From: Alteriqipengyuania halimionae
GTDB lineage: Bacteria; Pseudomonadota; Alphaproteobacteria; Sphingomonadales; Sphingomonadaceae
Assembly: GCF_009827575.1 (NCBI RefSeq)
Contig: NZ_WTYR01000001.1
Coordinates: 2,205,001 to 2,269,000 of the forward strand
DNA length: 64,000 nucleotides
Direction: 5' to 3'
Shown here piece after piece: positions 44,440 to 48,376 of the stretch. The notes under the pieces are model-generated. The model made no database searches and was not told the origin of the DNA. It saw only the letters and a program-made list of their open reading frames with translations. The first letter of the stretch is position 1; every line of letters begins with the position of its first letter. The position numbers and the translations under genes were made by a program.

Positions 44440-46122
44440 ATGATTCCAACCGAACCGCCTGCCACCGAATCGACCGCCAAAGGATCGCACGCCACCGCCG
44501 TGATCAATCGGCGAACGCTGCTCAAATCAGGGGTGCTGGCAACCGCCCTGGCTGGATCGCCGGTGCTAGCTCAGTCCGGCGAACGCGGATTCACCCACGG
44601 AGTTGCCAGCGGCGAGCCCGGGGCCGATCGCGTGCTGTTGTGGACTCGTTTCGTTGCCGACTCGCCCGCCAAGCTCACTTACGAGTTGAGCGACACGGCC
44701 GACTTTGCGCGCATCGTTACCGGGGGCGAGGCTTCGGCTACCCCGGATCGCGACTGGTGCTGCAAGGCCAAGGTCAACGGGCTCGAACCGGATAGCTGGT
44801 ACTATTATCGCTTCGTATCACCCGATGGGTCGATCTCTCCGGTGGGCCGAACCCGCACACTACCGCTCGGCCCGACCGAGCGGTGGCGGATGGCGGTGTT
44901 CTCCTGCTCCAATATCGGCTTCGGGTGGTTCAACGCCTACGCCCATGCCGCCGCCGAAGACGCGTTCGACATGATCGTGCACACGGGCGATTATTTCTAT
45001 GAATACGGCCGCGGGACCTATCCCTCGGTCGAACAGGCGCTGGCCGATCGCAGGCTCGATCCAACGAACGAGATCGTTACGCTGGCCGATTACCGCGCGC
45101 GGCACGGACTCTATCGCCGCGATCCGGATCTGCGTCGCCTGACCCAGCTCTACCCGATGATCGCGGTGATCGACGACCACGAGAGCGCGAACGACTCCTG
45201 GCGCGGCGGGGCCGAGAACCACCAGCCCGAGACGGAAGGCGACTGGAGCGTGCGCAAGCGCGCCGCCATGCGCGCCTATCGCGAATGGATGCCAGTCGAC
45301 GACGAGGTCGATTATGCGCGCTACGATATCGGCGACCTGGCTACGCTGTTCCGGCTCGAAACCCGGCTGACCGGGCGCGATGAGCAGTTCTCGATCGGCA
45401 AGGTGATTTCGGGGAAGACCTCGCCCGACGAGATGATGGCCGCGCTTTCCCGCTTCCATGATGGCGAGTATCTCGACCCGTCGCGCAACATGATGGGCGA
45501 AGCGCAAAGCGCTTGGTTGAGCGAGGGACTCGGGCAATCGAAGCGTGACGGCACAACATGGCAGGTGCTCGTCCAGCAAGTGCTGACGGGCTCGGTTTCG
45601 ACACCCACCGGATTGGCCGATTCGCTCGGCGACGATGTGCCCGACTATGTCCGCCAACGTGTCCGTGCCGGAGCGCTGGCCGCAAAGGCTGGCCTCCCGC
45701 TTAACATGGACGCATGGGACGGTTATCCCGCCGCCCGCGCGCGCCTGTTCGAAAGCGCGCTTGCCGCCGATGCCGATCTCATCGTTCTCGCCGGCGACAC
45801 CCACAATGCCTGGGCCTTCGACCTCGATCACGATGGTGACCGCGTCGGCGTGGAGTTCGGCGGGCAATCGGTGACATCGCCGGGGTTCGAAAGCTATCTG
45901 CCGCAGATCCCGGCAGACCGCCTCGCCAGCGCCCTGGTGGAGGCCAATCCGCAACTGCGCTGGGCCCAAAGCTCGCGCCGCGGCTACATGGCAGTCGAGC
46001 TGACACCGACGCGTGCGACCAGCGAATATCGCTTCCTGTCGGGCATCCGTTCGCGATCCACGGCCCTGGCCGCCACCCATCGCGAAAGCGTGCGCAACGG
46101 CGAGAGAACACTCGAAACTTGA
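44440..46122 (+). CDS. phoD: PhoD-like alkaline phosphatase/phosphodiesterase
   Basis: 560 aa. A twin-arginine-like signal, NRRTLLKSGVLATALAGS, suggests Tat export. Residues about 45-140 form the PhoD N-terminal fibronectin-like domain (FTHGVASGEPGADRVLLWTR); metal ligands follow in VFSCSNIGFGWFNAY, VHTGDYFYEYGRGTYP, VIDDHESANDSWRGGAENH and VLAGDTHNAW. It hydrolyses phosphomono- or diesters outside the cytoplasm. ATG 44440 has GGAG six bases upstream; ATG 44428 is an alternative. No pho box was identified by eye. Confidence 0.92.
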   Translation: MIPTEPPATESTAKGSHATAVINRRTLLKSGVLATALAGSPVLAQSGERGFTHGVASGEPGADRVLLWTRFVADSPAKLTYELSDTADFARIVTGGEASATPDRDWCCKAKVNGLEPDSWYYYRFVSPDGSISPVGRTRTLPLGPTERWRMAVFSCSNIGFGWFNAYAHAAAEDAFDMIVHTGDYFYEYGRGTYPSVEQALADRRLDPTNEIVTLADYRARHGLYRRDPDLRRLTQLYPMIAVIDDHESANDSWRGGAENHQPETEGDWSVRKRAAMRAYREWMPVDDEVDYARYDIGDLATLFRLETRLTGRDEQFSIGKVISGKTSPDEMMAALSRFHDGEYLDPSRNMMGEAQSAWLSEGLGQSKRDGTTWQVLVQQVLTGSVSTPTGLADSLGDDVPDYVRQRVRAGALAAKAGLPLNMDAWDGYPAARARLFESALAADADLIVLAGDTHNAWAFDLDHDGDRVGVEFGGQSVTSPGFESYLPQIPADRLASALVEANPQLRWAQSSRRGYMAVELTPTRATSEYRFLSGIRSRSTALAATHRESVRNGERTLET

Positions 46123-46147
46123 TCGGGCCGCGCCGCCGGACTATCTT
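46119..46147 (+). promoter_or_regulatory. Promoter of the thrS leader
   Basis: TTGATC (46119-46124), a spacer of exactly 17 bases, and TATCTT (46142-46147) match a housekeeping promoter. Transcription should start about seven bases downstream, at or next to the A of the leader ATG (46154). The leader message would therefore be leaderless. Confidence 0.6.
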
Positions 46148-46153
46148 GTCCGC

Positions 46154-46222
46154 ATGGCCAAACGTGTGACCACCACGACGACTACCACCCCGGCGCTCCG
46201 GGGGCGGTCGGTCGCGCGCTAG
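46154..46222 (+). CDS. Threonine leader peptide for thrS
   Basis: 22 codons: MAKRV, then seven consecutive Thr codons (ACC, ACC, ACG, ACG, ACT, ACC, ACC), then PALRGRSVAR and TAG. Such a run is the hallmark of a ribosome-mediated attenuation leader: when charged tRNA-Thr is scarce the ribosome stalls on the Thr codons and changes the folding of the RNA behind it. It lies 124 bases before the threonyl-tRNA synthetase start. No ribosome site precedes it, consistent with the promoter that puts +1 at the ATG. Confidence 0.8.
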   Translation: MAKRVTTTTTTTPALRGRSVAR

Positions 46223-46298
46223 TCGCACCGCCGCCACCCGGTTTCGGGTGGTGCGGCGTCCTCCCGAAATCGCAGAGCTTTCAACGTCGCGCTTTTTT
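46202..46298 (+). promoter_or_regulatory. Attenuator-like alternative hairpins before thrS
   Basis: A strong hairpin has a core of seven pairs, CCACCCG (46234-46240) with CGGGTGG (46245-46251), extended outward to 46226-46258 with a bulge and wobble. Competing pairings are GGCGGT (46203-46208) with ACCGCC (46227-46232), and the Thr-codon ACCACC (46170-46175) with GGTGGT (46247-46252). A T6 run is at 46293-46298, but it is about 35 bases beyond the hairpin, so classical intrinsic termination is not proven; control of initiation is possible. Confidence 0.55.
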
Positions 46299-46345
46299 CG
46301 CGTGCGCGCCTGTGCAATGGCGCGCGCAACAACTGGACGAGACCG

Positions 46346-48376
46346 ATGACCGAACTGCTCAAGATCAGCCTGCCCGATGGTTCCGTGCGCGAGATGGAGG
46401 AAGGCTCCACCCCGGCAGACGTCGCCGCCGCGATCGGGCCCGGCCTGGCCAAGGCCGCCATCGCCGCCCGCGTCGATGGAGAATTGCGCGACATCAACCG
46501 CCCGTTCGAAGGCGATGCCGAGCTCGCGCTGGTCACGTCGCGCGACGAGGAAGACGCGCTCGAACTCGCGCGCCACGACTACGCCCACGTTCTGGCCGAA
46601 GCGGTGCAGGCACTTTGGCCCGGCACGCAAATTACCTTCGGCCCGGCGACGGACGACGGTTTCTATTACGACGTCAAGGCACCCGAAAGCCGCGATCCGT
46701 TCAGCATGGACGATCTCCCCGCGATCGAGGAAAAGATGCGCGAGATCATCAAGGCTGACAAGCCGCTGCGCCGCGAAGTGTGGTCGCGCCAGCAGCTGAT
46801 CGAGAAGTGGGAAACCGAGGGCGAGACCTTCAAGGCCGAATGGGCCAAGGAACTGCCCGAGAACGAAGAGCTGACGGTCTACTGGTCGGGCGAAGACTGG
46901 CTCGACATGTGCCGCGGCCCGCACCTGCCCAGCACGGGCAAGCTCGATCCGCAGGCGTTTAAGCTGATGCGCGTTGCCGGGGCCTATTGGCGAGGCGACC
47001 AAAACAACGCGCAGCTCACGCGCATCTACGGCACAGGCTGGCTCAACAAGAAGCAGCTCAACGCGCATCTCCACCGGCTCGAGGAAGCCGCCAAGCGCGA
47101 CCACCGCAAGCTGGGCCGCGAGATGGACCTGTTCCACCTGCAGGAAGAAGCACATGGCAGCGTCTTCTGGCACCCCAAGGGCTATCGCATCTGGCGCGAG
47201 CTCGAGGCCTATATGCGCCGCAAGATGGACGGTGCCGGCTATCGCGAGATCAAGACCCCGCAATTGATGGATGTGCGCCAGTGGGAGCAGTCCGGCCACT
47301 GGGGCAAATATGCCGAGAACATGTTCGCGGTGCCCGATATCGTGCCCGAGATCGAAGGCCTTGGAGACGACAACGACGGCAAGGGGGCCGCGCCCGAGGT
47401 CGCCGCCGATGCCGACTGGATGGCGATCAAGCCGATGAATTGCCCGGCGCATGTGCTCGTGTTCAAGCAGGGTATCACCTCCTATCGCGACCTGCCGATC
47501 CGCTTGGGCGAGATGGGCTGCTGCCATCGCAACGAGCCGCATGGCGCGCTCCACGGACTGATGCGCGTGCGCCAGTTCACCCAGGACGATGCGCATATCT
47601 TCTGCACCGAAGCGCAGGTCGTCGAAGAGGTTCGCGCGTTCTGCGAACTGGCCGACAGCGTCTACAAGGACTTCGGTTTCGAGTACGACGTCAAGCTCGC
47701 CCTGCGTCCTGAAAAGCGGTTCGGCTCGGATGAAATGTGGGACAAGGCCGAGCAGGAAATGCGCGACGCGGTCGAAGAAGCGGGCATGGCCAATGACGAG
47801 TATGGCTGGGAGGAACTCCCCGGCGAAGGTGCGTTCTATGCGCCCAAGCTCGAATGGCACCTGACCGACGCGATCGGGCGGACCTGGCAGGTCGGCACGA
47901 TCCAAGGCGACCGCGTGCTGCCGGAACGGCTCGATGCGACCTATGTCGGCGAGGATGGCGAGCGTCATCGCCCGGTCATGCTGCACCGCGCGATCTTCGG
48001 ATCGTACGAGCGCTTCATCGGCATCCTGATCGAGCATTTCGCTGGTCGACTACCCGTCTGGCTTGCACCGGTGCAGGCGGTGGTCGCGACGATCGTTTCG
48101 GATGCGGACGACTATGCCAAGGAAGCGGTTGCGAAACTGGAAGCAGCGGGGATCCGCGTCGAGAGCGACCTGCGCAACGAGAAGATCAACTACAAGGTGC
48201 GCGAACACTCGCTCGCCAAGGTTCCGCACCTGCTGGTAGTCGGCAAGCGCGAGGCCGAGGAAGGCACGGTCGCCGTCCGCACACTGGGCGAAAAGGAGCA
48301 ACGCGTGATGAGCCTGGACGAGGCCATTGCGATGCTGAAAGACGCTGCCACCCCACCCGATCTGAAGCAGGGCTGA
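46346..48376 (+). CDS. thrS: Threonyl-tRNA synthetase
   Basis: 676 aa class II synthetase. N-terminal TGS domain (about residues 1-62), editing domain with HxxxH-type motif in [11 protein letters not shown], catalytic core with zinc ligands Cys in KPMNCPAH and His residues later, [15 protein letters not shown] (motif 2 region), and anticodon-binding domain (from about 575, [12 protein letters not shown]). An acidic insertion of about 25 residues ([14 protein letters not shown] region) precedes KPMNC. GGACGAG lies upstream of the ATG. Expression is probably tuned by the threonine leader. Confidence 0.97.

Follow-up and report, generated by a model that had tools for sequence, protein, structure and literature searches.

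A conserved threonine-codon leader with covarying alternative helices suggests attenuation control of thrS in Sphingomonadaceae

Results

Organization of the region upstream of thrS

The analysed window, a stretch of 64,000 nucleotides from Alteriqipengyuania halimionae (contig NZ_WTYR01000001.1, positions 2,205,001 to 2,269,000), contains a gene for threonyl-tRNA synthetase (ThrRS), whose product carries the Pfam domains TGS, tRNA_SAD, tRNA-synt_2b and HGTP_anticodon. This gene is preceded on the same strand by a short open reading frame with a run of threonine codons, which is followed by a succession of potential RNA helices (Table 1). The first-pass annotation had described a frame of 22 codons with seven successive Thr codons located 124 bases ahead of thrS. 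The sequence confirms this frame and its closeness to the gene, with the distance between stop codon and thrS start amounting to 123 nt, one less than stated. A run of seven ACN codons is found at a single place in the window and is absent from all 100 dinucleotide-preserving shuffles of it, and ACN runs of six are confined to two sites in the whole genome of 2.81 Mb. The locus hence contains a cluster of cognate codons within a short frame in front of the matching gene, with the translation of this frame being predicted.

Upstream of the leader, a putative promoter places the predicted transcription start at position 46154, which is the A of the leader ATG. A consensus scan of the region did not call this promoter, because it deviates from the E. 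coli consensus, to which it shows a weak match. In relatives, the T at position –12 is found 12–13 nt upstream of the leader ATG in 26 of 35 scored cases. Since this spacing puts the inferred start on the ATG also in relatives, the leader transcript is probably a leaderless mRNA, as far as can be judged from its sequence. Leaderless starts were reported for S. meliloti trpL (PMC7298713) and also for S. lividans thrL (PMC8079986).

Table 1. Features of the thrS upstream region, with positions referring to the window.
Feature	Positions	Strand	Description and basis
Predicted promoter	46119–46147	+	–35 TTGATC 46119–46124, 17-nt spacer, –10 TATCTT 46142–46147; sequence
Leader peptide ORF	46154–46222	+	MAKRVTTTTTTTPALRGRSVAR*; ATG 46154, TAG 46220–46222; 22 codons
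Seven consecutive Thr codons (regulatory codons)	46169–46189	+	ACC ACC ACG ACG ACT ACC ACC
P1, hairpin within leader	46188–46203	+	46188–46193 (CCCCGG) with 46198–46203 (CCGGGG); 83% of cells paired; covariation score reached in 0/500 shuffles
P2, stalled-ribosome form	46198–46241	+	46198–46207 with 46231–46241; 94% of cells paired; formed in stalled masking
P3	46234–46251	+	46234–46240 with 46245–46251; 95% of cells paired; formed with ribosome at stop codon
P4, putative antiterminator	46240–46271	+	46240–46248 with 46263–46271; 90% paired; covariation
P5, putative terminator stem	46253–46290	+	46253–46259 (GCGGCGU) with 46284–46290 (ACGUCGC); 91% paired; covariation
U6 tract	46293–46298	+	Two bases (GC) past P5; sequence
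thrS, threonyl-tRNA synthetase, putative regulated gene	46346–48376	+	Pfam domains

Conservation and distribution of the leader

For a comparison across relatives, thrS loci were taken from named genomes and from the family of the window. Thr-rich leaders of 19–26 codons, with 4–12 threonines (7 on average), precede thrS in 41 distinct loci and share a C-terminal PxxRGRxVA motif. The Thr codons of these leaders are distributed over ACC (0.55), ACT (0.20), ACG (0.19) and ACA (0.05), and this use of all four synonyms points to a selection on codon identity that would go beyond RNA pairing alone.

When mapped on a phylogenetic tree of ThrRS, calculated with FastTree and carrying local support values only, the leader is present in nearly all of Erythrobacter, Qipengyuania, Croceicoccus, Altererythrobacter and allied taxa and occurs sporadically in Novosphingobium, Sphingopyxis, Blastomonas and Sphingomonas, a pattern that requires at least 12 gains or losses. 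A covariance model detected the element in 87 of 250 genomes of the family at E<1e-7, counted among the matches listed and including some that match by construction, since the model derives from this same family. All matches at the level of the order again fall within this family, and a class sample contained nothing credible beyond it, with the sole outside match being weak and located in the ribA region of genome G438. This match and other weak ones (at position 875522 of the genome of the window and in G162, G211, G009 and G085) were rejected as false positives, which lack a Thr leader and are located in or beside coding sequences.

In several sister taxa, thrS is intact and the leader is absent, which shows that the leader is dispensable. 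Irrespective of the leader, a YUGUGCCAWGG box, found at 46311–46321 of the window, is located about 25–60 nt before thrS and at the same place in relatives with and without Thr leader. The latter include four close Erythrobacteraceae relatives (loci L093, L097, L098 and L104), which have apparently lost the leader and kept this thrS-proximal box and which provide natural knock-outs. A different situation is found in the metagenome-assembled genome HGW-Alphaproteobacteria-14 (L010, 2930–3000), where the Thr leader is kept, the region of P3 to P5 is absent and the stop codon is located 50 nt from thrS, reflecting either a natural deletion or an assembly error.

Two loci contain an additional gene between the Thr leader and thrS, which encodes a protein of 168 amino acids (MRYYIDTEFNGTxGQLLS...) and is located on the minus strand of L082 (3554–4060), derived from a congener (G001), and of L148 (582–1088), derived from a genome of genus g7 (G162). 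Its DTEFN start is exonuclease-like, a search against Pfam gave no match, and no counterpart was detected in the genome of the window. In G001 and G162, the leader may control both this gene and thrS.

Covariation of alternative helices

The RNA structure following the Thr codons was analysed on an alignment of 32 leaders. Since the helices had initially been identified by eye in the same sequences on which they were tested, we consider covariation, and not the percentage of paired cells, as the relevant evidence. Covariation is evident in P4 and P5, where 21 and 22 cells have changed on both sides of the helix, compared to 7.3 and 9.4 in shuffles, and where the score is reached in none of 500 shuffles. 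In both cases, covariation is also clearly higher than in slid controls. The arms given with the 32-leader alignment are GGUUUCGGG and CCCGAAAUC for P4 and GGCGUUU and AAACGCC for P5. P3 displays little covariation in excess of shuffles, and because P2 and P3 show pairing almost throughout and little variation, their support comes mainly from conservation.

The first-pass annotation had also proposed three mutually exclusive pairings, one of them involving the Thr codons, and these turned out to be real: P1 is extended to include Thr codons when the RNA folds freely, P2, which pairs CCGGGGGCGG of the leader with CCGCC.CCCGG, and P3 compete for 46231–46241, and P4 and P5 cross and are thus mutually exclusive as simple hairpins. 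The comparison across relatives, which it had suggested as a check, shows conservation both of the Thr leader and of the competing helices, the latter with covariation, and P4 and P5 hence constitute mutually exclusive, putative antiterminator and terminator helices that are backed by comparison. Two further hairpins appeared appealing by eye and were discarded, one enclosing the U-tract (P6, mean z –0.40) and the other surrounding the TGTGCCATGG box (mean z –0.23), with neither of them being more stable than shuffles.

Dependence of helix choice on ribosome position

The influence of the ribosome was simulated with an energy model in which the RNA under the ribosome is hidden, assuming one footprint size and without shuffled control. 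With the ribosome placed midway along the Thr codons, the mean probabilities in the 32 sequences are 0.28 for P5, 0.24 for P4 and 0.62 for P2. With the ribosome at the stop codon, these values change to 0.77 for P5, 0.03 for P4 and 0.00 for P2, and P3 is formed with a probability of 0.83. Helix choice in silico hence depends on the position of the ribosome. In 26 of the 32 sequences, P5 is more probable with the ribosome at the stop codon, which is the expected direction, and stalling raises the probability of P4 by more than 0.1 in no more than 14. In the window, the minimum-energy fold of the stalled state contains P2 and P4, and that with the ribosome at the stop codon P3 and P5. The predicted switch is less clear if the ribosome is stalled at the first Thr codon than if it is stalled in the middle of the run.

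These properties can be assembled into a mechanism in which transcription would begin on the leader ATG and a ribosome following RNA polymerase would translate the 22 codons of the leader. At a shortage of charged Thr-tRNA, this ribosome would stall within the seven Thr codons and the CCGGGGGCGG segment (46198–46207) would pair with 46231–46241 to form P2. This would leave 46240–46248 free to pair with 46263–46271 in the antiterminator P4, thus permitting transcription of thrS. If Thr-tRNA is charged, the ribosome would instead proceed to the stop codon and cover 46198–46207, allowing the formation of P3 and subsequently of P5, which together with the U6 tract would halt transcription before thrS. 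In this scheme, the reading frame and its conservation, the covarying helices and the predicted switch were computed here, and we infer the leaderless start, premature termination as output and the response to Thr-tRNA charging. The attenuation design on thrS that had been proposed from the sequence of the window is supported by the conserved Thr leader, the covarying helices and the expected switching direction in most of the sequences. We thus consider it highly probable that the element is a ribosome-mediated attenuator, which ties the expression of thrS to the level of charged Thr-tRNA. Judging from the modelled folds, more ThrRS is probably made when ribosomes stall for want of charged threonine tRNA.

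The termination step and alternative explanations

The window contains a U6 tract past P5, which may be a chance variant. Among 39 members of the element, a single one has five or more consecutive U at this place, the longest run in 35 of them is 2–3, and the sequence past P5 is mostly a conserved CUU or CUUU. A terminator was not found in a consensus scan of the region, because the loop of P5, which is long and comprises 24 nt in the window, exceeds the limit of the scan. In two 20-kb stretches of the window, terminator-like sites with U-tracts are not enriched over shuffles (10 vs 13.2 and 10 vs 14.0), so the lineage may do without reliance on long U-tracts. Since most relatives lack a proper U-tract, the termination step, either intrinsic or assisted by Rho or Nus factors, is less certain than the Thr sensor.

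It is therefore conceivable, and to our judgement possible without being the likely case, that the same Thr-sensing leader acts by Rho-dependent or otherwise factor-assisted termination, with the helices gating the access of Rho or the pausing of polymerase. As this reading is a variant of the attenuator described above and differs in the termination step only, the probabilities assigned to both overlap. It would account for the short U-tracts in almost all members and for the lack of enrichment of terminator-like sites in the two stretches, and the thrL attenuator of S. lividans was likewise reported with a hairpin and without U-rich sequence (PMC8079986). On the other hand, the window carries its U6 tract at the right place, and the covariation of P5 is that of a discrete stem, fixed in position directly before the conserved CUU, for which a Rho mechanism has no need.

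The output could also be translational, if the structure of the leader were to hide and expose the thrS ribosome-binding site or if thrS were translated by reinitiation. This would fit the short distance between leader and thrS, and an action on a downstream ribosome-binding site was proposed for other leader-peptide elements such as the LEU elements (PMC1262725). However, the ribosome-binding site of thrS is predicted to be equally accessible in the stalled and in the finished state (0.47 and 0.47 in 39 loci), with a difference of more than 0.1 in none of the loci. Moreover, 123 nt separate the stop codon from thrS, and a whole gene intervenes in some relatives. We thus regard translational control as improbable and, based on the unchanged accessibility in the modelled folds, transcription as the more likely output of the attenuator.

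The classic example of an aminoacyl-tRNA synthetase that feeds back on its own translation is E. coli thrS, where ThrRS binds to tRNA-like arms of the thrS mRNA and prevents its translation. In this operator the regulated gene is the same and there is no leader peptide. A corresponding mechanism, with the leader frame being incidental, would offer a role for the conserved YUGUGCCAWGG box between attenuator and thrS, which is also present in some relatives without leader. It is very unlikely, as it leaves the Thr run, the variety of synonymous codons and the crossing helices without a role, as the surroundings of the box fold no more stably than shuffled sequences (see above) and as its loop, by inspection, keeps no NGU anticodon-like triplet across members. 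Finally, a chance low-complexity frame with ordinary GC-rich folding, which would fit the free minimum energy of the region being just moderately below that of shuffles (z –2.45), is refuted by the comparison across relatives, with the leader being conserved across many genera and the helices covarying, and by the absence of the Thr run from shuffles of the window, and has a negligible probability.

Discussion

Our analysis describes an attenuator-like element on thrS, which has counterparts on other genes and in other lineages. In E. coli pheST, a Phe leader peptide precedes the genes of phenylalanyl-tRNA synthetase and is followed by alternative antiterminator and terminator pairings. The thrS element resembles this system in the cognate-codon-rich leader before a synthetase gene and in the alternative pairing and differs from it in amino acid, gene, the unrelated sequence and the location of pheST in gammaproteobacteria. 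Leader-peptide attenuation of aminoacyl-tRNA synthetases is already known for pheST in gammaproteobacteria, with E. coli pheST named as classical case, and for trpS and leuS in Streptomyces (PMC1262725). For thrS, an attenuator was proposed from RNA-seq of a single genome in S. lividans. It shares with the window the Thr-codon leader before thrS and the leaderless start and lacks a clear U-rich terminator, but contains two Thr codons only (MKRVRPFLETTPGFVPAR), belongs to the Actinobacteria and, in the part of the study consulted, is described without mention of covarying alternative helices (PMC8079986). The Thr leader of E. coli thrABC (Rfam RF00506) has a Thr-codon leader and the same attenuation logic, but controls threonine biosynthesis instead of ThrRS. 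The respective Rfam model gave no match at its gathering score in the window or in eight relatives and was not listed even at E≤5, and no T-box was matched by Rfam in the region upstream of thrS. Within the Alphaproteobacteria, S. meliloti trpL encodes a leader peptide whose transcript starts from the leader ATG (PMC7298713), as predicted for the window, but contains Trp codons and controls trpE(G). In this system, trans-acting functions are additionally exerted by the leader RNA after its release and by the peptide. Searches of the open-access literature gave no description of leader attenuation of proteobacterial thrS, including that of Sphingomonadaceae, and subscription literature may contain an earlier prediction. 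The thrS element hence probably represents a known type of mechanism in another lineage, with an unusual U-poor putative terminator.

The region upstream of thrS was also inspected in 80 other alphaproteobacterial families, each represented by one genome, and Thr-rich leaders were found in three of them. G446 contains the leader MFKRPTIETTATTTLLEGP, followed by the textbook terminator GACCCTCC...GGAGGGTTTTTT, whose 5' arm can alternatively pair with GGAGGGTC in the leader. With a Thr leader and a canonical GGAGGGTTTTTT terminator (L182, 220–421), this locus is better suited for a test than the window. The leader of G432 (L184) is MRTHPVLRSTATTTTTATGGRWRMRA, and in the family of G447, short leaders of the MxRxFxTAPxxTTVRT type are conserved, which end before thrS on TTVRT* or a similar sequence (L246–L275). 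Their presence in three further families shows that Thr leaders on thrS are recurrent in Alphaproteobacteria, with either one origin or several.

Taken further, and as a tentative generalization to which we assign somewhat less than an even chance, Alphaproteobacteria would recurrently control thrS in dependence of charging by Thr leaders, unlike the feedback by a ThrRS operator in gammaproteobacteria. In Sphingomonadaceae, this control would employ a leaderless mini-mRNA and a terminator that is poor in U and possibly assisted by factors, and it would include an exonuclease-like gene along with thrS in some lineages. The element described here represents a family not contained in Rfam, which close relatives have naturally lost. 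As a conserved and covarying Thr-codon attenuator on thrS in another proteobacterial class, it suggests that a different sensor serves the same need, which is to match the supply of ThrRS to the charging of its tRNA.
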